From Singulisphaera sp. GP187 (GTDB lineage: Bacteria > Planctomycetota > Phycisphaerae > Phycisphaerales > SM1A02), in NCBI GenBank assembly GCA_945868805.1, contig CAMBMO010000007.1, forward strand, positions 1-64,000: DNA of 64,000 nucleotides, read 5' to 3'. Below the pieces are notes generated by a model. It was given only the letters and a program-made list of their open reading frames with translations, was not told the DNA's origin and ran no database searches. Positions 4,412-55,299 of this stretch are shown here, piece by piece; within the stretch, counting starts at the first letter, position 1, and every line of letters starts with the position of its first letter. A program made the translations under genes and the position numbers.

Positions 4412-5791
4412 ATGCGCCTAAAGCTCGCCATCGTTGTAGGACTATCTGCTCTCGTCGCCTCGACCGCATCTGCGGGGGTGACCGCGATCAAGCCAAAGCT
4501 TGTCATCGGTACGGGGTTGACCTATCCAACAACGATTGCAAGCGCGCCTGGCGATACGACGCGACTGTTCATTTGCCAGAAGCGTGGAGTGATCTCGATC
4601 ATTGACATCTCTGGAGCAACGCCGACGCTTCTTGCAACTCCGTTTCTCGACATCGACTCGCTCGTGACTGGTGGTGCAAGTACTGGCGACGAACAAGGAT
4701 TGCTCGGGCTTACTTTCGACCCGGACTACACGGTCAATGGTCAGTTCTATGTTTATTACACGACCGCGTCGACGAATTTGGTCGCGCGCTATTTGAGATC
4801 AACCACCAATCCAAATGTTGCGCAGACGACTGGCGTGACACTCATGAGTTGGGCCGATCCCTATACGAATCACAATGGCGGATGCATCAACTTCAAACCT
4901 GGTACGCGAGATCTGTACATCGGCACTGGTGACGGCGGAAGCGGAAACGACCCAGCTGGTAACTCGCAGAACCTGCTGAGCAAGTTGGGCAAGATGCACC
5001 GGATCACCCCGACGGTCGGCGGAGCGACCCCGTACCACACGATTCCAGCGGATAATCCATACGTTGGAGGTGCGTCGACGGTGGACGACAGTGTCTGGGC
5101 GTACGGCCTGCGAAACCCATGGCGATGGTGCTTTGACAGTGCCAATGGCGACATGTACATCGCGGATGTCGGACAGAATGCGGTCGAGGAAGTGGATTAC
5201 GCGCCGTCGAATGTTGCTGGCGGGCGAAACTATGGTTGGCGCTGCACCGAAGGATCATCCTGCACCGGACTCACCGGCTGCACATGCAACGGCGCGACGC
5301 TGACTGCGCCTGTACGCACGTACACGCACAATGCGGCGGGCGGATACTCGATTACCGGTGGCAATGTCTATCGCGGCTGCGCGATGCCTGCGATGCATGG
5401 AATCTATTTCTATGTCGACTATTCCACCAACAATTCATGGTCGTTCAAAATGGTCGGCGGAGTCGTGACAGAATTCGTCACGCGCAATGCAGAACTTGCG
5501 ACATCAACGACTGGCGTCGCTGTCAACCAAATCGCTTCTTTCGGAGAAGATGGCAATGGCGAGATCTACATGGCAGATCACGGCGGTCAGATTTACAAGA
5601 TCGTTCCAGCCGCTGGCGAAGTCGTCTGCAATCCACCGAATCCATCCGACCTCAACGGCGACGGAGCTGTCGATGGTGCCGATCTCACCCAACTCCTCGG
5701 TTGTTGGGGAGGGACCTGTGGCGACATCAACCAAGATGGTTACACAGATGGTGCAGACATGACGACATTGCTCGGCGCGTGGGGCACTTGA
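4412..5791 (+). CDS. Secreted PQQ-type glucose/sorbosone dehydrogenase with dockerin-like C-terminus
   Basis: The 459-residue protein starts MRLKLAIVVGLSALVASTASA, a clear signal peptide. The body is a six-bladed propeller of the glucose/sorbosone dehydrogenase family, shown by EQGLLGLTFDPDY, a long NHNGG...LYIGTGDGG stretch, YGLRNPWRW, IADVGQNAVEEVDY and YSITGGNVYRG. These soluble enzymes oxidise sugars with PQQ; the actual substrate is unknown. The last 50 or so residues hold two calcium-loop repeats (DLNGDGAVDGADL and DINQDGYTDGADM, each followed by LLGxWG), the Phycisphaerae dockerin-like anchoring tail. ATG at 4412 is chosen for the signal peptide and the AAAGAGAA stretch upstream. It appears to be a single-gene transcript. 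Confidence 0.88.
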   Translation: MRLKLAIVVGLSALVASTASAGVTAIKPKLVIGTGLTYPTTIASAPGDTTRLFICQKRGVISIIDISGATPTLLATPFLDIDSLVTGGASTGDEQGLLGLTFDPDYTVNGQFYVYYTTASTNLVARYLRSTTNPNVAQTTGVTLMSWADPYTNHNGGCINFKPGTRDLYIGTGDGGSGNDPAGNSQNLLSKLGKMHRITPTVGGATPYHTIPADNPYVGGASTVDDSVWAYGLRNPWRWCFDSANGDMYIADVGQNAVEEVDYAPSNVAGGRNYGWRCTEGSSCTGLTGCTCNGATLTAPVRTYTHNAAGGYSITGGNVYRGCAMPAMHGIYFYVDYSTNNSWSFKMVGGVVTEFVTRNAELATSTTGVAVNQIASFGEDGNGEIYMADHGGQIYKIVPAAGEVVCNPPNPSDLNGDGAVDGADLTQLLGCWGGTCGDINQDGYTDGADMTTLLGAWGT

Positions 5792-10555: not shown

Positions 10556-11222
10556 TGTCCTTCGATTTCATCGAGACGAGAATCGTGACTCCTCCCGTGA
10601 CACGATCGCCTTTCGCGACCCGCACAACATCGGTCAGTCGCGTCGGAACGATGAGCTCGGTCGTCGATCCAAACTTGATCATTCCAAAGCGTTCCCCGCG
10701 CGCGAACGAATCCCCGGCCGAAAGTGGACAGACGATTCGTCGGGCGATCGCTCCGGAAACCTGTCGGACACCGAGGCGCTCACCTTCCGAATTTCTGAGG
10801 AGAATGAGGTTGGACTCGTTGACCTGCGCGCTCTCCGGCGATCGCGCGTCGAGATAACGACCTGGTGTGTGGAGTGTCGAAATCACGGTTGCTTCGCACG
10901 GCATACGATTGATGTGCACATCAAGCACGCTGAGGAAAATGCGAACGATGGTCGCTGGGCTGTCGGTGGCGGGATGATGATCAATCGTGAAGACCGCGGA
11001 GACAACTCCATCTGCCGGGCTGACAAGATCGAGCGAACTTTCCGTCGCGGGTTTTCGAAGCAGGGGATCGCGAAAGAATGCGGCGATGACGAACCATACA
11101 AATCCGACTGTTGCAATCACCCAGATCGGCGGAATTGATCCACGTCCTGCGATCAAAACAATCGCGATAGCAATAGCCGTCGCGAGGCCCCACTCTCGAA
11201 GTCCGTAACGGGAGAGAATCAC
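10500..11222 (-). CDS. psd: Phosphatidylserine decarboxylase proenzyme
   Basis: The 240-residue enzyme decarboxylates phosphatidylserine to phosphatidylethanolamine at the inner membrane. It is the short (archaeal/PSD-B) type. Two N-terminal membrane helices (about 10-28 and 31-50) are followed by SPADGVV, LDVHINRMP and the self-cleavage site FGSTTEL, where Gly185-Ser186 is cut to generate the pyruvoyl group. The C-terminus is Ala/Ser-rich. The ATG overlaps the stop of the upstream HTH-like gene by four bases, so the two are coupled. The 3' end overlaps the convergent GAF gene by 56 bp. Confidence 0.92.
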   Translation of the reverse strand: MILSRYGLREWGLATAIAIAIVLIAGRGSIPPIWVIATVGFVWFVIAAFFRDPLLRKPATESSLDLVSPADGVVSAVFTIDHHPATDSPATIVRIFLSVLDVHINRMPCEATVISTLHTPGRYLDARSPESAQVNESNLILLRNSEGERLGVRQVSGAIARRIVCPLSAGDSFARGERFGMIKFGSTTELIVPTRLTDVVRVAKGDRVTGGVTILVSMKSKDITLTANRASSSATAAGHA

Positions 11223-12553
11223 TCGATTGCGCGTCCGACGAAGAAGCCGATGCCGCCAGCAATGATTGTTGCGATCGCCAAACCGCCACCCCAGACCATC
11301 ACATCCTGAGCGATCATTCCAGAGAGAATGCTTCCACCACCCATTCGGCTTCCCATCACAACGAGCGCAGCGAGGACGATCGCGGCGAGCGATCCAGCCA
11401 TCAGTCCAAGCCCCATGCCACTTCCCGCTGAGTCGACCCGTTCAGCATGCATTGCGACAACGCCGCTACCGCTCGAAGCAGCCGCAACGGGGCTCCCACC
11501 CGAATCTTGGTCGAATCCATCCCCATCGGATGGTTCGGCGAAGAGACCAGTACCGCCAGAAAGTGACGCACCAGTGCCAAAAGTTTCGTCGCCTCCGTCA
11601 TCGAGAAGTGCCGCGCCAACGGTTGATTGATCCGAATCGGTCGAGTCATCCATCATTCCGCTACCCGAACCGACTGTCTCAAGAGAGAGTCCGCCCGAGC
11701 CACCCATTCCTGCGAGATCTAGGAAGTCTTCGGATTCCGCGACGGGCTTGCGAGCGGGAGGAGGCGCCATCGAACCGCTTGCATCGGAAGCCATCGCCGT
11801 TGCAGAGTCCCCTCGGCTGTCATCGAGCAAGTCGATGCCACCACTCGGATTCGAACCAACGGGCTTGGCATTCTTGGAATCCTGCCCATCATCGAGACCC
11901 AAGTCGAGATCCAAGTCGAGACCCGAGTCGAGATCCAAGTCGAGACCCAAGTCGAGGCCCGAGTCGAGGCCCAAGTCGAGATCCAAGTCGAGATCCGGAT
12001 CCCTCCCTGCATTCGCACCTGACTTCGAAGGGAGTGGCGCGATTGCGCTGGAATCCGCCGAGTCAAGGAGGTCGAGTGGCTCGACGACCGGCGCCCTTGG
12101 CGGAGTCGCGCTGTTGGATTTCGGTGGTGCAGGTGCATTTGGAATCGCGGCTGCCGATGCGCCAGAATCGCTCAGCATCAGCCCTTCGTCGAGATCGAGA
12201 TCAAGTTCTTCCGATTCCTTGGCACCTAGAGCTTCCGTTACATCATCGTCAAACTTCAAGTCGTCAATGAATGCTTCACCCGAAGACTTGCCCGAAAACT
12301 TGCCCGGAAAACTGTCGGGAGTCGCGGGAAAGGACGATCCAGAACGACCCGAATCGAGACCGTCGTCAGCAGGAATATCGAGGTCGATGACATCGTCGAC
12401 GACCAATTGATCGATCACGGTTCGTTTGAAATGCACCTGGTCGTGCATTCTGAATTCTTCAAGTTGTCCATGCTGAACCATGCTGGTGAGGTCGGATTGG
12501 GACTTTCCGAGCTTCGCCGCCGCTTCGTCGATCGTGTAAAAGAGCTTGGCCAT
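11219..12553 (-). CDS. HTH-headed acidic-repeat membrane protein
   Basis: The 444-residue protein has three parts. Residues 1-55 (KLFYTIDEAAAKLGKSQSDL...VHFKRTVID) look like a MerR/excisionase-type winged helix as found in helix-turn-helix_17 proteins. The long middle is acidic and low-complexity, including about 40 residues of alternating Asp-Leu/Gly-Leu. The C-terminus has two or three membrane helices (about 375-395 and 415-440). Such HTH-plus-anchor proteins occur in planctomycetes without assigned function. Whether it binds DNA from the membrane, or the HTH fold serves another role, is open. It is co-transcribed with psd through a 4-nt overlap and divergent from mutY with a 37-bp gap. 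Confidence 0.75.
   Translation of the reverse strand: MAKLFYTIDEAAAKLGKSQSDLTSMVQHGQLEEFRMHDQVHFKRTVIDQLVVDDVIDLDIPADDGLDSGRSGSSFPATPDSFPGKFSGKSSGEAFIDDLKFDDDVTEALGAKESEELDLDLDEGLMLSDSGASAAAIPNAPAPPKSNSATPPRAPVVEPLDLLDSADSSAIAPLPSKSGANAGRDPDLDLDLDLGLDSGLDLGLDLDLDSGLDLDLDLGLDDGQDSKNAKPVGSNPSGGIDLLDDSRGDSATAMASDASGSMAPPPARKPVAESEDFLDLAGMGGSGGLSLETVGSGSGMMDDSTDSDQSTVGAALLDDGGDETFGTGASLSGGTGLFAEPSDGDGFDQDSGGSPVAAASSGSGVVAMHAERVDSAGSGMGLGLMAGSLAAIVLAALVVMGSRMGGGSILSGMIAQDVMVWGGGLAIATIIAGGIGFFVGRAIE
11898..11999. repeat. 12-bp coding repeat array (Asp-Leu tracts)
   Basis: Within the HTH-headed gene the plus strand shows about eight head-to-tail variants of a 12-mer around AAGTCGAGATCC or CGAGTCGAGGCC. 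On the coding strand these give Asp-Leu-Asp-Leu and Gly-Leu-Asp-Ser/Leu units. The 12-bp period keeps the frame, so copy number could change without breaking the gene. Confidence 0.85.
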
Positions 12554-46816: not shown

Positions 46817-48649
46817 GTGAGATTCGACCCATCGATTTCCACGGCAATCGCCGTTGGCTGTCTCTCCCTTCCCGCATTCGGGCAGGTGAGAGTGATGAAT
46901 TACAACTGCGCCCACTTCGGTGGTGATGCGGGTGCCATCCAATCAGTCATCGTGGCCGCTCATTCCGATAACAAGACCGGGTGGGCGAAACCAGTCGATA
47001 TCTTGCTCTTTCAAGAGGTCACTTCTGCAACCGTCGGGACACTGCAAACCGCGGTCAACTCGGCCGCCCCTGTCGGCACGACCTATGCGCGAGCAACATT
47101 CACCACGTCTTCCGGTGAGGACGCCTCCGCCGGTGCTCAGTGTGCGTTTTATCGTGTGCAGACCGTTTCCGAGACGGCGAGCGCCCATGTGGACATCTTC
47201 ACTGGCGCGGGTCGCAACGCCGATCGCTGGCGCTTCAAGCTGAATGGATACTCGTCAAGCGCGGCTTCTCTTTACGTTTACAGCGCGCATCTGAAAGCCT
47301 CGCTCGGTTTCGAGGACGATCGCGAAACTGGAGCATTGGCGATCCGCCTGAACGCCAATTCGATCGGGGCAGGAGTTCGCGCGATCTATGTCGGCGACTT
47401 CAACATCTATGTCAACACCGAAAGTGCCTACCTCGCCTTTCTCGCGGCGGGAAACGGTCGCGGCAACGATGCACTCGGTACTGGCTCGTGGTCGGGTTCG
47501 TCCAATGCGTGGAAGCACACGCAGAGTCCACGGCTTGCGTCGGGAGCTCTTGTTGGAGGCGGTATGGATGATCGATTCGATTTCCATCTCATGACCGACC
47601 AGTTGTCCGACGGCGAAGGTTTGAGCGTGATCGCGTCGACCTATCGATCACTCGGAAACGATGGGAATCACTACAACATCGCGATCAATACAGGCGCGAA
47701 CACCTATTACCCGTTGGAACGATCGCGATCGAATGCGCTCGCGAGTGCACTGTTCAACGCGTCAGATCACATCCCCGTGCTCGTCGACTATCAAGTTCCA
47801 GCGGTGATGGCAGCGACGATTGGGGCGATTGCACCCCGTGTGATTCAAGGCGCGAATCTCACGGCGACCGTCGCTGTGCAGAATGTGGTAGTGGTCGCCA
47901 CCAACATTGGATCCGACGAACTGGATTACACCGTCTCAGGAGTCGCCGGACTGATTGGTGGTGCTTCCTCGGGCATCGCGCCTCTCGCACCTGCGGTGGC
48001 AAATGCGGTGTTTTCGGTCAACACCGGGACGATTGGAGTGCTCGAGGTCGAGGCGCAGGTAACGAGTTCATCGGAGGCCGTTCAAAACGGCGCGATCGTA
48101 TTGCCAACTTCGTGTGTCGTCCTCTCACGTGCGAAGCCTTCGTGGCAGTCGACCTCACTCGTGACGAGCATCACGGTGCCACTTTCGATTGCGACCGGTA
48201 GCTCTCCAGTGAACTTCGATGTGCCGCTTCACAACTATGGCTGGCAGTCGTTGCAATCGAAACTCGATGCGGACTTCATCTCGTTCCCTGCTGGTTCCGC
48301 GCTCTCGCGGGTGGGGGGATTGCCGATGTCTGTCGCCGGAACCCCGGGGCTTCTGCATCTGCGCCTCAATCCAGTTGGATTGCCAATCGGGCTCACAACC
48401 ATCAATGCAACCCTCTTGACGAGTGATGAAGACATCCCAGGCGAAGGAGATGGATCTTTGAGCCTCTCGATCGCGGTGACGGTCGGCGATCAATCACAAC
48501 CGGGCGACATCAACGGCGATGGTGTCGTAGACGCAACCGATCTTGCCATTCTGCTTGCGCAGTGGGGCGGTCCTGGGAGTGCGGATATTGATCACTCTGG
48601 GGTAGTCGACGGCAATGACTTGGCTACTCTCTTGGGGAACTGGGGTTAA
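46817..48649 (+). CDS. Secreted endonuclease/exonuclease/phosphatase-fold protein with dockerin-like tail
   Basis: The 610-residue protein (GTG start) has a signal peptide ending LSLPAFGQ. The EEP domain (about 25-330) shows VMNYNCAHFGG, ILLFQEVTS, VYSAHLKASLG, IYVGDFNIY, DDRFDFHLM and SDHIPVLVDY, the conserved Asn, Glu, His, Asp and terminal Asp-His of DNase I-like nucleases and phosphodiesterases. A beta-rich middle follows, then two dockerin-like repeats (DINGDGVVDATDLAILLAQWG and DIDHSGVVDGNDLATLLGNWG). An extracellular nuclease is most plausible. It is first in a run of three dockerin-tailed genes. Confidence 0.85.
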   Translation: MRFDPSISTAIAVGCLSLPAFGQVRVMNYNCAHFGGDAGAIQSVIVAAHSDNKTGWAKPVDILLFQEVTSATVGTLQTAVNSAAPVGTTYARATFTTSSGEDASAGAQCAFYRVQTVSETASAHVDIFTGAGRNADRWRFKLNGYSSSAASLYVYSAHLKASLGFEDDRETGALAIRLNANSIGAGVRAIYVGDFNIYVNTESAYLAFLAAGNGRGNDALGTGSWSGSSNAWKHTQSPRLASGALVGGGMDDRFDFHLMTDQLSDGEGLSVIASTYRSLGNDGNHYNIAINTGANTYYPLERSRSNALASALFNASDHIPVLVDYQVPAVMAATIGAIAPRVIQGANLTATVAVQNVVVVATNIGSDELDYTVSGVAGLIGGASSGIAPLAPAVANAVFSVNTGTIGVLEVEAQVTSSSEAVQNGAIVLPTSCVVLSRAKPSWQSTSLVTSITVPLSIATGSSPVNFDVPLHNYGWQSLQSKLDADFISFPAGSALSRVGGLPMSVAGTPGLLHLRLNPVGLPIGLTTINATLLTSDEDIPGEGDGSLSLSIAVTVGDQSQPGDINGDGVVDATDLAILLAQWGGPGSADIDHSGVVDGNDLATLLGNWG

Positions 48650-48675
48650 CTATTGAGGATTGAGTTAGTCTTTGA

Positions 48676-51000
48676 ATGATGAAGCGAGAAATGAATAACA
48701 CCATGAAGATCTACGCTTTTCCTGAGCTTTGGACGAAGGCTTGCGCAGTGGCGCTCGCGTCGACAATTGTGACGGGCGCTTGCGCAGTCGATTTGGCAGT
48801 TCTCAGCGTCGAATTGACCCAAGGCGAGCAGTTCGGCACGACGACGCTCGTCGGTGGACGACCGACGATGGTGCGAGTCAAAGTCCGGATCACAGGTCAA
48901 ACGACAGCCCAGCCGAATGTTGACGCAGTCCTTCGCATGTATGTCGGCGGAGTGCAAGTTTCGGGATCACCGATCTTTTCACACAATGGACCGATCACCG
49001 CGCCGATCGCTCCCAACTCGATCAATGTGAACGACACGCTCAATTTCAAAATCGTCGCTCCTGTCAGCGCGGATGTTGACTTCCAAGTCGTGGTCGATCC
49101 GCTCAATCGAGTGATCGAATCCGACGAATCCAACAATAGCTTTGCGATCAATAACAAGGTTTTCGCCTGTCGCAAGGTGCTTGATGTCGCATATGTATCG
49201 ATCAATTACGCCCCCGGTGGCGGGCAACCGGTTGCCGCGACGATCGAGCCAGGAGTCGGCGATGCATTCATGCGTGGCATCTATGCGATGGCCGAAATGA
49301 ACTATCACCGATCTCCACTCGGACCGTACACATTTTCGTCGGATATCAATTCGCAGAGCAGCGCATTGCTCGCGGCGCTCCAGACCATTCGACTGACGCA
49401 GATTCCCGCTGCTGGATACGCACGACCCGAGTTTGTTTACGGCTGGCTGTTGGGGAATCCCTTCAGTGGCAATGGTCAGGCGATCGGGATCCCTGGCGAT
49501 GTGGCGTTCGGCAACTCAGAGGCGTCTCGATTTCAACGCACATTTGGACACGAGATTGGCCACTGCTGGGGGAGGAGTCACACCAGTTCCACAATCGGAT
49601 TCATTGGATTCGATGTCGAACACCACCTTGTCAGCCCGCTCTCTCTCGCACAGACGCACGCGACGACTCAGAGCGATGTGATGGTCGCGGGGCTCTTGAC
49701 CAATCAAGCTTGGGTCGACACTGGCACCTACAACGACTGTCTCTCGGACACGCGCTCGCAGTGCAGTGCGTTCGCGCCTCCTGGTGGTGGCGAAGATCCA
49801 GCCTCCGATGCGCAGCGAGTCCTCCAGTTGAGCGGCGCATACCAACACGAAGTCGGTCGCATCGACTTCTTCCCAGTCAATCAGATCGACCTCGCCGCAC
49901 CGACCGCCGATGATCGAAACGGAGATCTGCTTGTGCAATCATTCGGCGCTGAAGGTGATTTGCTGTCAAGTCTCCGGTGGCGATCGGGAACAACTCGAGA
50001 GTCCTGTGCATTGTGCACGAAAGGCAAGCCAGAGCTTCACGAAAGTACTCCAGTTTCGGTTCTCATTCCCGCGAGTGTGCGAGGCATCGCCCCCGCCCGG
50101 ATCGAAATGCGTGAAATGAAGAGCGGACGATTGTTGGCGACTCGAACGCGCACTCCGTCGAGTCCGATCATTGCGAGTCTTGGAAGCAGAATCGTCGACG
50201 GAGCGGGTGTCGCCCATCACATGATCGATTCCGACGCGCAAGAAGTCGCTCCATTTGTCGAAATCTTCTGGGGAGCGAGCGATCAGGACGATGACTCGTT
50301 GTCCGCGGACGTTTTATACAGCCGCGACGGCGGAGCGTCGTGGTCTGCGATCACTGTGAACGAGACGAGATCGTCGATCAAGCTTTCCCTCTCCGACATC
50401 CCGGTCGCGCCGAGCGGGCTGGGAATCGTCAAGCTTCGCGTGACCGACGGACTGAATGTGGTCGACGCAGAAATGCCGGCGGCATTGGGAGTTTTCGTTG
50501 GTAAGAATGCGGACGAGGGAGCGGTCGCGGGAAGCGCGGATTGGTCGACGTTCTGGGGGAGCAATAATCCAGACATTCATCTGATTTCTCCAAACACCAC
50601 TGGTTCCTATCCAGACGGCGCTTCAATCCTCCTGCATGGATCGGGATGGGATCTCGAAGATCAGTACTTGCCAGAGAGTGGCTTCACGTGGACCTCGTCA
50701 CTCGCCGGACCGATCGGGACTGGCCGTCAGATTTTCACATCGGCACTCAACCCGGGCACGCACACGATCACCCTGCGCGGTACGGACTTGGATGGGTCGT
50801 TTCTCGAGAAGTCCGTCTGGGTGATTGTGACTGAGCGACAGACGTTCACATCGGACATCAACGGTGATGGCAGGGTGAGCGCGATCGATCTCGCAGCGAT
50901 TCTGAGCAACTGGGGTGGAAGTGGCGGGGGCGATCTCAACTTTGATGGCGTCGTTGACGGCACCGATCTCACGGCACTCTTTTCGGGGTGGACTGGATGA
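48676..51000 (+). CDS. Secreted metzincin-like metalloprotease with CARDB-like and dockerin-like domains
   Basis: The 774-residue protein has a signal region ending near TGACA. ATG 48676 is used here, with 48691 and 48703 as alternatives. A CARDB-like beta domain (about 55-160; VVDPLNRVIESDESNN) precedes the peptidase domain, whose zinc site is HEIGHCWGRSH (His292, Glu293, His296, His302), the extended metzincin signature. Beta domains follow (about 420-720), then two dockerin-like loops (DINGDGRVSAIDLAAILSNWG and DLNFDGVVDGTDLTALFSGWTG). It would be an extracellular protease. It overlaps the next gene by four bases. Confidence 0.85.
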   Translation: MMKREMNNTMKIYAFPELWTKACAVALASTIVTGACAVDLAVLSVELTQGEQFGTTTLVGGRPTMVRVKVRITGQTTAQPNVDAVLRMYVGGVQVSGSPIFSHNGPITAPIAPNSINVNDTLNFKIVAPVSADVDFQVVVDPLNRVIESDESNNSFAINNKVFACRKVLDVAYVSINYAPGGGQPVAATIEPGVGDAFMRGIYAMAEMNYHRSPLGPYTFSSDINSQSSALLAALQTIRLTQIPAAGYARPEFVYGWLLGNPFSGNGQAIGIPGDVAFGNSEASRFQRTFGHEIGHCWGRSHTSSTIGFIGFDVEHHLVSPLSLAQTHATTQSDVMVAGLLTNQAWVDTGTYNDCLSDTRSQCSAFAPPGGGEDPASDAQRVLQLSGAYQHEVGRIDFFPVNQIDLAAPTADDRNGDLLVQSFGAEGDLLSSLRWRSGTTRESCALCTKGKPELHESTPVSVLIPASVRGIAPARIEMREMKSGRLLATRTRTPSSPIIASLGSRIVDGAGVAHHMIDSDAQEVAPFVEIFWGASDQDDDSLSADVLYSRDGGASWSAITVNETRSSIKLSLSDIPVAPSGLGIVKLRVTDGLNVVDAEMPAALGVFVGKNADEGAVAGSADWSTFWGSNNPDIHLISPNTTGSYPDGASILLHGSGWDLEDQYLPESGFTWTSSLAGPIGTGRQIFTSALNPGTHTITLRGTDLDGSFLEKSVWVIVTERQTFTSDINGDGRVSAIDLAAILSNWGGSGGGDLNFDGVVDGTDLTALFSGWTG

Positions 51001-51866
51001 CGAAGTTCGGCATAAGCCATGTCGCTGACGGGAAATCGCGGCTCCGTTGGATTTTCATCGCTTCACTCGCCGGCGGGTTGATCGGTGCGAACGCACTCGC
51101 GGTGACCGTGACCCTCGGTTCCGTGAAGGACGCGACGCTCATTTCTGACCAGTTGCCCGAGCTCGCGCTTGGCGCCGCGTACAGCATTTATTCGGGGCGT
51201 GTTGGGACTCAAGGCAATAGCACCCTGCGAAGAGGGTTGATGCAGTTCAATTTTTCTTCGATCCCCGCTGGATCGACCGTGACGAGTGTGCAACTGAAGC
51301 TCTATATGAGCGCTTCGCAAACCGGTACCCAGACAGTCAATCTCCAGAAGTCGCTCCTCTCGTGGGGCGAAGGCGCCTCGTTCGCATTCGGTGGCGGAGG
51401 TGCGCCGGCGCAGACCAATGACGCGACTTGGTGGAATCGGTTTTATCCAAGCCAGCCGTGGCCGACTCCTGGTGGTTCGTTCAGCACAACCGTCAGTGCC
51501 TCGAAAAGTATTGGCGGAGTTGGTTGGTACACATGGGGCTCGACGACTCAGTTGGTCGCTGATGTTCAATCATGGATCGACCAACCGCAGTCGAACTTTG
51601 GATGGGGCGTCCTCGGAAACGAAGTGACGTTGCAATCGGTGAAGCGATTCGATGCGAAGGAATCCGGCGCGAACAATCCGCAGTTGATCGTTATGTACTC
51701 GCCACCACCGGCGAATCCGGCGGATGTCAATAACGATGGCCGCGTCGATGGAATTGATCTCGCGATCGTTCTCAGCGCCTGGGGTACTTCGAACGGGCAG
51801 GCGGACATCAATGACGATCAGTTGGTCGACGGAGTCGACCTCGCGCTCGTGCTCGCTGCGTGGTAA
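50997..51866 (+). CDS. Secreted DNRLRE/CBM96-type domain protein with dockerin-like tail
   Basis: The 289-residue protein has a signal peptide (about 17-38, IFIASLAGGLIGANALA). Residues of about 40-235 match the DNRLRE (CBM96-like) sandwich: VKDATLISD, RRGLMQFNFSSIPAGSTVTSVQLKLYM, DATWWNRF, VADVQSWIDQP and FDAKESGANNPQLIVMY. Two dockerin-like repeats (DVNNDGRVDGIDLAIVLSAWG and DINDDQLVDGVDLALVLAAW) close it; the last ends without the usual glycine. It has no catalytic residues and is probably a carbohydrate-binding or structural surface protein. The start overlaps the protease stop. Confidence 0.82.
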   Translation: MTKFGISHVADGKSRLRWIFIASLAGGLIGANALAVTVTLGSVKDATLISDQLPELALGAAYSIYSGRVGTQGNSTLRRGLMQFNFSSIPAGSTVTSVQLKLYMSASQTGTQTVNLQKSLLSWGEGASFAFGGGGAPAQTNDATWWNRFYPSQPWPTPGGSFSTTVSASKSIGGVGWYTWGSTTQLVADVQSWIDQPQSNFGWGVLGNEVTLQSVKRFDAKESGANNPQLIVMYSPPPANPADVNNDGRVDGIDLAIVLSAWGTSNGQADINDDQLVDGVDLALVLAAW

Positions 51867-51875
51867 AACAACATC

Positions 51876-52670
51876 GTGGATGCATCATCGACGCTGATCG
51901 AAGCGATTGGACTCCGCAAGAGTTTCGGTTCGCTCGAAGCGGTTCGGGGAATCGACCTCGCAGTTGTTCGCGGGGAAGTGCTCGGATTTCTCGGTCCAAA
52001 CGGGGCAGGAAAATCGACAACCATGCGGATGCTGACAGGATTCTTGGATCCAGACGAGGGGACGATCAAGATCGCTGGGGTCGACCTCGCGACAGATCCT
52101 CTGGGCGCCAAGCGCAACTTTGGATACCTCCCAGAGGGTGCCCCCGCGTACTCGGAGATGCGTGTCGAGGACTTTCTCGCTTTTTCAGCCCGGGCGCGTG
52201 GATACCGAGGCGCGGAAGTGTCGCGTCGAGTCGACCGCGCTGTCGAACGCGTTCACTTGGAACCCTGTCGCGGTCAGCGAATCGAAACGCTTTCAAAGGG
52301 ATACAAGCGGCGGACCGGCATCGCGCAAGCGCTCTTGCACGATCCACCAGTGCTGATACTTGATGAACCGACGGACGGTCTCGATCCGAACCAGAAATTT
52401 GAAGTGCGCCAGCTCGTGCGCGATCTGGGTAGGGATCGTGCGATCATTCTCTCGACCCATATCCTCGAAGAGGTCGAGGCGGTTTGCACACGTGCGGTCA
52501 TCCTTCACCGAGGGAGGACTGTCTTTGATGGAACGCCGAAGGAACTCGATGCGAGAGTGCCGGCGCACATCGTCCACAACAGACTCGACCACATTTTCCG
52601 AACTCTGACAGCGGGCAAAGATTCATCGAAGGATCGCCACGCGACGAAACAGATCCGAGGGCGATCGTGA
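51876..52670 (+). CDS. ABC transporter ATP-binding protein (GldA-like)
   Basis: The 264-residue protein (GTG start) has Walker A GPNGAGKST, signature LSKGYKRR, Walker B LILDEPTDGLDP and a switch histidine in LSTHILEEV. It belongs to the ABC-2/GldA group. With the permease and GldG-like gene downstream it forms a three-gene unit, each coupled by 4-nt overlaps. GldAFG homologues occur in many non-gliding planctomycetes, so a role in gliding should not be assumed. It starts ten bases after the dockerin run. Confidence 0.88.
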   Translation: MDASSTLIEAIGLRKSFGSLEAVRGIDLAVVRGEVLGFLGPNGAGKSTTMRMLTGFLDPDEGTIKIAGVDLATDPLGAKRNFGYLPEGAPAYSEMRVEDFLAFSARARGYRGAEVSRRVDRAVERVHLEPCRGQRIETLSKGYKRRTGIAQALLHDPPVLILDEPTDGLDPNQKFEVRQLVRDLGRDRAIILSTHILEEVEAVCTRAVILHRGRTVFDGTPKELDARVPAHIVHNRLDHIFRTLTAGKDSSKDRHATKQIRGRS

Positions 52671-53434
52671 ACGAAGGTCCTCCCGCGACGCCGTCTGCGC
52701 TCTTGCGTACAGCGAGTGTCTTTCGACGAGAATTCTTCGCGTACTTTTCGACTCCGATCGCCGCCGTCTTTTTGGTGATGTTTGTCGCGATGGCGGCACT
52801 GCTGGCTTTCCAAGCGGGAGGGTTGTATGCGCGTGGTCAAGCGGATTTGCGCGCTTTTTTTCAGTGGCAACCATGGCTTGGGTTGTTCTTTATGCCCGCG
52901 CTCGGAATGCGACTGTGGAGTGATGAGAGGCGGAGCGGTTCGATCGAACTCCTCATGACACTTCCCCTCACGACGCGCGACATGGTGTTGGGGAAGTTTC
53001 TCGCCGCGTTGGCCTTCGCATGTGTCTCGCTTGCACTTACGACGCCCTTGTGGATCACGGTTTCATGGCTCGGGAACCCCGATCATGGAGTCATCTTCGC
53101 GGGGTATCTCGCATCGGCGCTCCTCTTCGCGACGATGCTGTCGGTGAGCACTTGCATCTCCGCTTGCACTCGAAATTCGGTTGTGGCATTTGTCCTTGGA
53201 GTCGCTGCATGCTTCGTATTGCTCCTGACGGGATTTCCGGTCGTCCTCGATTTCTTCTCGCAGTGGGCGCCAAAGACCGTGATCGAGGCTGTCGCCTCCA
53301 TGAGTGCGATTGTGCATTTCAACGCGCTGACTCGTGGCGTCTTTGATGCACGTGATTTGCTCTATCCGCTGTCGGTGATCATTGCGTTCTTGTGGATCAA
53401 CGCGATGGTGCTTGATTGGAGGGGATCTCGATGA
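52667..53434 (+). CDS. ABC-2 type permease (GldF-like)
   Basis: The 255-residue protein has six membrane helices: FFAYFSTPIAAVFLVMFVAMAA, LFFMPALGMRLWSDE, FLAALAFACVSLALTTPLW, GYLASALLFATML, FVLGVAACFVLLLTG and LYPLSVIIAFLWINAMVL. The RRSGSIELLMTLPL segment after TM2 is characteristic of ABC-2/GldF permeases. The GTG start overlaps the ATPase stop and its own stop overlaps the next start. Confidence 0.87.
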   Translation: MNEGPPATPSALLRTASVFRREFFAYFSTPIAAVFLVMFVAMAALLAFQAGGLYARGQADLRAFFQWQPWLGLFFMPALGMRLWSDERRSGSIELLMTLPLTTRDMVLGKFLAALAFACVSLALTTPLWITVSWLGNPDHGVIFAGYLASALLFATMLSVSTCISACTRNSVVAFVLGVAACFVLLLTGFPVVLDFFSQWAPKTVIEAVASMSAIVHFNALTRGVFDARDLLYPLSVIIAFLWINAMVLDWRGSR

Positions 53435-55299
53435 GTCGTCGTGCAAGACGATCGGGAAGCATTGGTGGGATCCTGTTGATCCTGATTGGACTGGTCGTAT
53501 TGAACGCAGCTGCGGCATTCGGTTTGATCGGATGGCGTATCGATTTCACGAAGGAAGGTCTTTACAGTTTCTCGCCTGGTACCCGTGCGATACTCAAGAC
53601 GCTCGACGAGCCAGTAAGGATCGATCTCTACGTTTCGCGCGAGTCGATTGCAGATATGCCAGAGCTCCGATCGCATGCGCAGCGCGTCGAGGAGTACCTC
53701 GAAGAACTCGTCGATCTCTCCGACGGGAAGCTCGAACTTCGCATCGTCAATCCGCAACCATTCAGCGAGAGCGAAGACGATGCGCGCGCTGCGGGACTGG
53801 TCGTCCAGCCAGTGAACAACAGTGGTGCGACGGCGATTCTGGGGTTGGTGGCCATTGGACCGACCGGGCGGACGAAGTCCATTTCCATCTTCTCGCCTGG
53901 TCGAGATTCGTTCATCGAGTACGAAGTCTCGAAGGCGATCGCGACCGTCGGACGATCGTCGAAGCCGAGAATTGGATTGCTCTCTTGCGTGCCACTCCAA
54001 CCGGCGACTGTGCTGGTGGATGGTTCGAGTGGTCAGCCCCGAAAAGCTCCATTTGTGATCGAACAGATGCGCGAACTCTTCGATCTCGTCGAGATTCCAG
54101 CGGATGCAGCGAAACTTCCTGACTCGATCGGCGCGCTCCTGCTCGTGCAACCTCGAAAGCTCTCCGAGTCGATGCTGCGATCAATCGACGCATGGGCGGT
54201 TGGTGGTCGACCGCTCGTCGTTCTGGCGGATCCATTCGCAGAAACGGATCAGCATCCAGATTCGCGTGTGATGGGTGCGAAGGTGCCAGCGACGGTCTAC
54301 GACTTTCCGTTGCTGAGCGCTTGGGGGCTCGACATCCCGCGCGAAATGACCGTTGGCGACTTGAACTACACCACGCTCATTCAGACTCCAGCTCCCGGCG
54401 GAACAATGCGAGAACTGAATTATCTCGCTTGGCTCAGTCTGAAAAGAGCAGCGCTCAATCAAGAGGACCCTGTGACTGGTGGCTTTGAGGCCATCAACCT
54501 TAAGAGTGTCGGGGAGATTCAACGCGCGAAAGATGTCGCCGCCGGTATCGCACCTCGAATTGAGCCACTCATCTTTTCGAGCAATCGATCGCAGCTCATC
54601 CAGACGTTGAAGCTCGGATACTTTGGCGATGCCGAACAGTTGCTACGCGATTGCAAGCCCGACGGCGTGATCCGCACACTCGCCGCGAAAATCACTGGCC
54701 CCATCGGAAGCGCGTTCGGTCCCACCATCGGGGAGGCAAACATTGTGATCATCGCCGATGCGGATCTCCTCGCCGATGAAACCTGGGTGAGGGACGATCG
54801 TCAGTCGGGAATGAAGCAGGCGTTCTCGGACAACGGTCCTCTCGTCATCGGATTGCTTGAGCGGATGGCGGGTGATCCAGCGGTCGCGACACTGCGATCG
54901 CGAGGAGGATTTCGAAGGCCATTTGAACGCGTTGAAGAAATTCGAAAGTCCGCGGAGGAGCGATACATCGCCCGCGAGAAGGACTTGCAATTGGAAGTTC
55001 GAAAGACCGAAATCAATATTGCTCAGCTTCGAACTCAGAGTGGAGGAGCGGAATCGGGATCGATGATCCTTTCGGCGCAACAACAGGCCGAACTCGCGGA
55101 ACTGCAGACGAAGGTCAACTCGTATCGCAAAGAACTTCGAGGCGTTCAGTATGGATTGCAACAAGATGTCAACTCACTTGGGCAACAATTGCTCGTGTTG
55201 AATGTGGTGATTTGGCCCATTCTTGTCGCGCTCGTCGCGGGTGTTTGGTGCTGGAGAGCGGCACGTCGGGTCGATCGATCTAAACCCGAAGAGAACTAG
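53431..55299 (+). CDS. GldG-like ABC-associated membrane protein
   Basis: The 622-residue protein has an N-terminal helix (about 12-35), a GldG/DUF-type extracytoplasmic domain (FTKEGLYSFSPGTRAILKTLDEPVRIDLYVSRE ... RVEEYLEELVDLSDGKLELRIVNP), a second alpha-beta domain (IGALLLVQPRKLSESMLRSIDAW; VVLADPF), a coiled coil (about 495-575) and a C-terminal helix (about 580-600). It is thought to be the substrate-facing partner of the GldA/F pair. Confidence 0.85.
   Translation: MSRRARRSGSIGGILLILIGLVVLNAAAAFGLIGWRIDFTKEGLYSFSPGTRAILKTLDEPVRIDLYVSRESIADMPELRSHAQRVEEYLEELVDLSDGKLELRIVNPQPFSESEDDARAAGLVVQPVNNSGATAILGLVAIGPTGRTKSISIFSPGRDSFIEYEVSKAIATVGRSSKPRIGLLSCVPLQPATVLVDGSSGQPRKAPFVIEQMRELFDLVEIPADAAKLPDSIGALLLVQPRKLSESMLRSIDAWAVGGRPLVVLADPFAETDQHPDSRVMGAKVPATVYDFPLLSAWGLDIPREMTVGDLNYTTLIQTPAPGGTMRELNYLAWLSLKRAALNQEDPVTGGFEAINLKSVGEIQRAKDVAAGIAPRIEPLIFSSNRSQLIQTLKLGYFGDAEQLLRDCKPDGVIRTLAAKITGPIGSAFGPTIGEANIVIIADADLLADETWVRDDRQSGMKQAFSDNGPLVIGLLERMAGDPAVATLRSRGGFRRPFERVEEIRKSAEERYIAREKDLQLEVRKTEINIAQLRTQSGGAESGSMILSAQQQAELAELQTKVNSYRKELRGVQYGLQQDVNSLGQQLLVLNVVIWPILVALVAGVWCWRAARRVDRSKPEEN

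Follow-up and report, generated by a model that had tools for sequence, protein, structure and literature searches.

We analysed a 64,000-nucleotide stretch (the window) of contig CAMBMO010000007.1 in GenBank assembly GCA_945868805.1, labelled Singulisphaera sp. GP187 and placed in the Phycisphaerales (Planctomycetota). Three consecutive genes, here called P1, P2 and P3, and a further gene for a glucose/sorbosone dehydrogenase (GSDH) protein encode a common module of about 50 amino acids (aa) with two calcium loops, flush with the stop codon. An earlier note made from the letters alone had claimed this shared tail, and all four copies were located as claimed, ending at the stop. As judged from its motif and predicted fold, the module is a dockerin. 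It recurs throughout the genome (2.50 Mb in 47 contigs, 95.8% complete), in which cohesin profiles found no match. The four genes and their modules are the following:

46817..48649, plus strand: P1, with a signal peptide (by eye), an EEP-superfamily (Exo_endo_phos) head and a dockerin at the C-terminus
48506..48646, plus strand: P1 dockerin module, two calcium loops, last residues NWG
48676..51000, plus strand: P2, exported, CARDB and metzincin-like, dockerin at the C-terminus
49549..49581, plus strand: P2 zinc-binding motif HEIGHCWGRSH (HEXXHXXGXXH), motif residues invariant across 22 aligned homologues
50854..50997, plus strand: P2 dockerin module, last residues WTG
50997..51866, plus strand: P3, exported DNRLRE/CBM96 protein, dockerin at the C-terminus
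51723..51863, plus strand: P3 dockerin module, last residues AAW
4412..5791, plus strand: GSDH protein, exported, dockerin at the C-terminus
5648..5788, plus strand: GSDH-protein dockerin module, two cysteines flanking the inter-loop linker

Two hallmarks of a dockerin were found in the tail, namely two loop-helix repeats (loop motif and predicted helices) and the three-dimensional fold, seen in an AlphaFold2 model of the P1 tail (53 residues, pLDDT 92.9). All Foldseek matches to this model with a probability above 0.5 were dockerin-bearing entries. The best of them, dockerin 2y3n_B (TM 0.86, rmsd 0.9), was also the sole entry reaching Z 8 in VIA-align (Z 9.2). When a profile of 49 tails was compared with solved structures, dockerins came first (best E 2.9e-8) and calmodulins lower (best 3.7e-4). 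The Pfam model Dockerin_1 (PF00404, cut-off 22.9 bits) recognised P1, P2 and P3 (25.2, 30.6 and 24.7 bits), with the GSDH protein below the cut-off at 16.1 bits. By its predicted fold the tail is a dockerin, with two calcium loops and a helix after each.

With Dockerin_1 and cellulosomal dockerins the tail shares the two DxNxDG loops, the helix after each, the predicted fold and the near-twofold repeat, but it differs from the cellulosomal forms in its short linker and Trp-Gly helix ends. Clostridial dockerins carry Ser-Thr / Lys-Arg as recognition residues, whereas the tail has Gly-x and small residues at these positions. Dockerins outside cellulosomes were reportedly described by Peer et al. 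in 2009. Another relative is NF041540 dockerin_GC ('GC-type dockerin domain-anchored protein'): P1, P3 and the GSDH protein match nearly the whole of this model, and those tails that carry the cysteine pair described below end in WGxCP or nearly so. Unlike that family, however, the window's four tails have no C-terminal cysteine, and all their scores stayed under the 29-bit cut-off (21.4, 21.2 and 14.5 bits for P1, P3 and the GSDH protein; no match for P2).

At E<=0.1, a profile built from the four tails picked out 66 genomic places, which excludes recurrence by chance. The stretches around these matches, together with the window, yielded 60 frames of at least 24 bits, 55 of them with both loops; the tail is thus a genome-wide feature and does not mark the three-gene cluster as a special unit. 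Of the 55 two-loop tails, 51 are C-terminal (at most 6 residues from the stop) and three N-terminal; the remaining one is internal to a frame truncated by a contig end. The N-terminal modules directly follow the signal peptide (by eye) and precede arylsulfotransferase-like, PETase/PAF-acetylhydrolase-like and FGE-sulfatase-like domains. A crude script detected signal peptides in 49 of the 55 two-loop proteins versus 3 of 15 cytoplasmic controls (36 versus 1 when a Met start within 60 residues was demanded), and at least three of the six proteins it missed start at a contig edge.

The Pfam search for heads covered 55 further proteins, or 59 with the window's four: 52 of the 56 frames scoring 24 bits or more that lie elsewhere in the genome (the short L060 at 1253, L077, L094 and L095 were omitted), and three proteins below 24 bits (L048, L056 and L073). 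Peptidases are the commonest recognisable heads among the 55 (five M12B, one M14 and three S8). There were also two GSDH proteins besides that at 4412, five FG-GAP proteins (one of them also M12B), two FGE-sulfatase heads, one di-haem oxidoreductase, plastocyanin-like, C-type lectin and YHYH head each, weak multihaem matches and some others; many heads matched no Pfam family. Carbohydrate-linked matches included two binding modules (CBM_35/CBM_6), and no glycoside-hydrolase family was found at E<=0.01 in any of the 59. The digestion set for DNA, protein and polysaccharide that the earlier note had suggested for the cluster was rejected, the tail being carried by about 60 varied proteins. Dockerin_1 passed its cut-off in 15 of the 55, fell below it in 20 and was absent at E<=0.01 in 20 (in L065 at 4005, one of the 15, its best stretch lies upstream of the C-terminal tail). 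With three of the window's four included, 18 of the 59 passed.

Two large proteins of this genome were weighed as scaffolds. L048 (C13:12000-22500; 2037 aa) has a run of fn3-like repeats, a rhamnogalacturonan-lyase beta-sheet domain match overlapping them, and a divergent C-terminal dockerin above the Pfam cut-off; from this architecture it might possibly be a scaffold. In L073 (C1:245500-250454; 1329 aa) the signal peptide is followed by a divergent dockerin, and the protein has an extended Cys-rich repeat array without any Pfam family at E<=0.01. Nothing in either protein indicated a binding site.

Conservation was read from an alignment (A3) of 49 of the 55 two-loop tails, which omits L083, L090, L074, the first tail of L061 (with Tyr at both Trp positions) and one tail each of the L082/L087 pairs. 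The first and last residues of the loops are Asp almost without exception (49/49, 49/49, 49/49 and 48/49), and the Trp ending each helix is present in 47 and 49 tails for repeats 1 and 2, respectively. Small residues recur at the same places of both repeats: Gly/Ala at loop position 10 (46/49 and 48/49), Ala/Ser/Thr two residues past the last loop Asp (43/49 and 48/49) and Ser/Ala/Gly two residues ahead of the Trp (49/49 and 48/49). Cysteines ahead of loop 1 and past the last Trp come as a pair: among the 55 tails, 22 have both, 33 neither and none a single one. Among 62 distinct tails of other genomes, taken from loci fetched for other purposes and many of them orthologues, 7 have both, 53 neither and 2 one. 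This pattern suggests a disulfide clasp joining the ends of the module. Other cysteines, two or four per tail and as a rule near the linker between the loops, occur in seven unclasped tails, that of the GSDH protein included; a further two contain one single cysteine each.

In a set of 61 genomes, made up of this one with 60 relatives, tails were detected in 58, with 31 to 91 per genome in the 19 members of the genus. In the family, all 181 genomes had the tail, 180 of them with at least 19 matches and one (G027) with a single match. All these counts are lower bounds, as at most 111 candidates per genome were scored in the 61-genome set and about 37 in the family set.

Cohesins were far scarcer than tails. 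The Pfam cohesin profile gave no match in this genome and matched eight of the 61 genomes at E<=0.1, four of them above the cut-off; at E<=0.1 it also matched Escherichia coli, so the weakest matches are unreliable. A clade profile made from six of these cohesins matched four genus members (G008, G012, G013 and G016; E 5e-14 to 5e-13) and nothing in this genome at E<=1, and its refined version matched 39 of the 181 genomes of the family and, within the genus, 4 of 19, but again nothing here. The absence of cohesin noted earlier for the window thus holds genome-wide within the sensitivity of the profiles. Cohesins of the kind that would have spoken against the earlier interpretation were found in relatives, though not in this genome. 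Since 15 of the 19 genus genomes (70-97% complete) are without a cohesin match, its loss merely to assembly gaps was rejected. The cohesin-bearing genus genomes have one to two matches each, versus 78-91 tails (lower bounds).

The cohesin of these genomes sits in an adaptor composed of TSP3-like repeats, cohesin, HYR-like region and divergent dockerins (the HYR and TSP3 parts recognised by eye, after PMC6461901). This adaptor was matched over its cohesin in the four cohesin-bearing genus genomes only, and among the matches listed in this genome all fall in the repeat part (query residues about 116-175). One further protein, L043 of genome G024 (C19:64219), is an exported protein of 219 aa in which a weak cohesin-like domain is combined with the same tail; judging from this composition, it is possibly a one-to-one linker.

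As for other anchoring or sorting systems, the lamin-tail domain (PF00932) was not found in this genome, while 5 of 14 control genomes matched. An exosortase is encoded in this genome and in 40 of the 41 that were searched. It is unlinked to the tail, because it is also present in three genomes (G045, G048 and G052) without a tail match at E<=0.001. By eye, none of the 55 two-loop tails has the transmembrane stretch with a basic (arginine) cluster that is typical of PEP-CTERM. SprA of the type IX system was found in none of 21 genomes, with no control genome matching either. The genome search that the earlier note had proposed for the tail and a receptor or sorting system thus recovered the tail in 60 frames, no cohesin and an exosortase without a link. 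In the titles and abstract beginnings surveyed, there was no recognisable report of cohesin-less dockerin sets in this clade.

At the locus itself, the P3 start is most likely the ATG at 50997, overlapping the P2 stop (ATGA). From this overlap and the gap of 26 bases between P1 and P2, the three genes look co-transcribed. The Pfam score of the P1 head lies exactly at the Exo_endo_phos cut-off (24.5 bits), the heads of P3 (CBM96 34.0, cut-off 26; DNRLRE 64.8, cut-off 34) are above theirs, and the protein at 4412 scores 105.2 for GSDH. The P2 head has the metzincin signature, HEXXHXXGXXH and a later Met, with H292, E293, H296, G299, H302 and the downstream M336 invariant across the 22 aligned homologues. 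Reprolysin models remained below cut-off on P2 (E 0.16; best of the 22 members 0.0012), and its predicted structure has a mean pLDDT of 56.4, below 50 in the catalytic region. Motif and weak profile matches together point to a divergent metzincin-like head. The neighbours are:

51876..55299, plus strand: ABC ATPase, ABC-2 permease and GldG-like auxiliary protein, conserved downstream neighbours of P3
43295..46743, minus strand: two M16-like peptidase genes, divergent, upstream of P1

We take the former to be a putative GldA/F/G-like cassette and the latter presumably to be M16-like peptidases, both sets of names being provisional. No link between the cassette and the dockerin tail was shown.

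In 13 regions of the genus, chosen for P2 or its remnant (G002, G003, G007, G013 and G015 lie outside the set), P1 and the nearer M16-like gene are present in 13, P2 in 12 and P3 in 10. The order M16 / P1-P2-P3-ABC-ABC2-GldG-like is preserved wherever the stretch reaches, except that G018 is without P2, G009 without P3, and G011 without P3 or ABC genes after P2. The ABC ATPase gene directly follows the tail genes in 11 of the 13 (G006 ends at a contig edge). Between P1 and P3 of G018 (L152, C40), P2 is cut down to a short frame with a signal peptide and an intact dockerin but without the zinc motif, which could be real or an effect of assembly. Within the genus, identity to the window for tail and head is 0.73/0.62 in P1, 0.62/0.66 in P2 and 0.64/0.63 in P3, so that the tails appear to be about as conserved as the heads. 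A public genome collection contained 26 loci with P2 relatives of 41-79% identity, and the tail is kept in all 23 with a recovered 3' end, down to 41%. The isolate names in these records are, by our own reading, mostly lake-like (Baikal, Erken and others), and some organism labels are implausible; the source organism is a probable lake bacterium.

Three further observations concern the rest of the window. A tmRNA gene was found by Rfam at 631-982 on the minus strand (122.9 bits), which ARAGORN did not report. Downstream of it, at 229-414, lies a 22-bp tandem repeat (8.5 copies, 96% match). Another tandem repeat, of 12/36 bp at 11892-11997, encodes an Asp-Leu-rich stretch in the minus-strand gene 11219-12553.

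A published counterpart is the planctosome, a cohesin-dockerin complex that Andrei et al. (2019, PMC6461901) proposed for the Nemodlikiaceae (CL500-3) and whose model comprises a lamin-tail anchor, a cohesin-bearing anchor/adaptor and M12B and M14 peptidases with dockerins. The resemblance extends to freshwater Phycisphaerae with small genomes (here inferred from named relatives), to the dockerin-bearing M12B and M14 peptidases and to a P2 homologue (41% identity) in isolate ZH-13MAY13-plancto13, of the name series used in the same paper. Neither a lamin-tail anchor nor a recognisable cohesin was found here, however, and many of the tagged proteins are not peptidases. A cellulosome, with its multi-cohesin scaffoldin and dockerin-bearing glycoside hydrolases, is matched on neither side, in view of the cohesin searches and of the 59 heads scanned; Dockerin_1 passing in only 18 of 59 likewise departs from cellulosomal dockerins. 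PEP-CTERM/exosortase systems resemble the present one in having a short common C-terminal module on many exported proteins and an encoded exosortase, but the tail is a folded calcium module that also occurs N-terminally.

We favour, at about even chances, the reading that the tail is a calcium-dependent envelope-retention tag, recognised by a shared receptor that is not a cohesin. Once exported, the module would dock in its calcium-bound form to one common receptor in the outer envelope or matrix, and secreted proteins that would otherwise drift free would thereby stay at the cell. The binding face would be repeated in both halves and made up of the small residues at loop position 10, after the last Asp and ahead of the Trp, and part of the tail set would be closed by the disulfide between module ends. 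The receptor would be something other than a profile-recognisable cohesin, and the cohesin-HYR-dockerin adaptors of relatives would form at most an accessory branch. Several points weigh against this. The shared receptor is putative, and different tails could bind different partners; the argument for a face rests on conservation, and the module is ordinary enough for a plain stability cap. The reading would also change if a cohesin had escaped the profiles through divergence or lay in the missing part of the genome, approximately 4%. Within the genus, the four genomes with a cohesin top or jointly top the tail counts (91, 90, 87 and 78, lower bounds), as would be expected if the system were linked to cohesins, although these genomes are on the larger side and probably related. 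The tails counted for the clasp are paralogues and hence not independent of one another, and shared ancestry inflates their Fisher statistic (8e-16). The best Foldseek E-value was 0.0035, with none <=0.001, as expected for 53 residues.

That this genome nevertheless encodes a planctosome, a true cohesin-dockerin complex with its cohesin overlooked for divergence or missing sequence, seems to us rather unlikely, though it is the strongest of the alternatives. The dockerin-bearing peptidases of types M12B and M14, which that model also has, the adaptor in four same-genus genomes, the cohesin-like protein of G024 and the high tail numbers of the cohesin-bearing, also large, genomes would all fit it. 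Against this stand the empty searches here with Pfam and both clade profiles and for lamin-tail domains, the restriction of the listed adaptor matches to the repeat part, the disproportion between cohesins and tails, and the 15 genus genomes without a match, too many for gaps alone. The idea that the tail is a C-terminal signal recognised in outer-membrane passage could draw on the 51 of 55 C-terminal tails and their very varied heads. It is improbable in our view: strict C-terminal sorting was rejected, because in three proteins the module comes right after the signal peptide and in another it is internal, and neither the composition of the tails nor the distribution of the exosortase agrees with it. 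Of the anchoring or sorting function supposed earlier, anchoring thus remains plausible, while the usual C-terminal sorting signal is disfavoured. Slightly less probable still is a calcium-dependent folding or stability cap without a partner. The compact fold, the clasp cysteines that would stabilise the ends and the failure to find a receptor are consistent with it, but a cap would not need one common sequence, whereas the two repeats keep the same residues in some 50 proteins of varied heads, and the fold is that of partner-binding dockerins.

Dockerins are usually, almost reflexively, read as parts of a cellulosome-like complex. Dockerins as such are known; what is notable here is their cohesin-less, genome-wide use: a genome of 2.5 Mb has about 60 of them, and all 181 genomes searched in the family have the module, largely without recognisable cohesins. 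Given this shortage of cohesins, the published planctosome model probably does not hold across the clade. Most of this tail class (41 of the 59 scanned) escapes the curated Dockerin_1 cut-off, and the identity of the tail receptor becomes the question raised. As a more tentative extension, which we consider somewhat doubtful, the whole family may use the dockerin as a position-independent retention tag of its secretome, bound by a receptor of non-cohesin fold, and to this older system the patchy cohesin adaptors would then be late additions.

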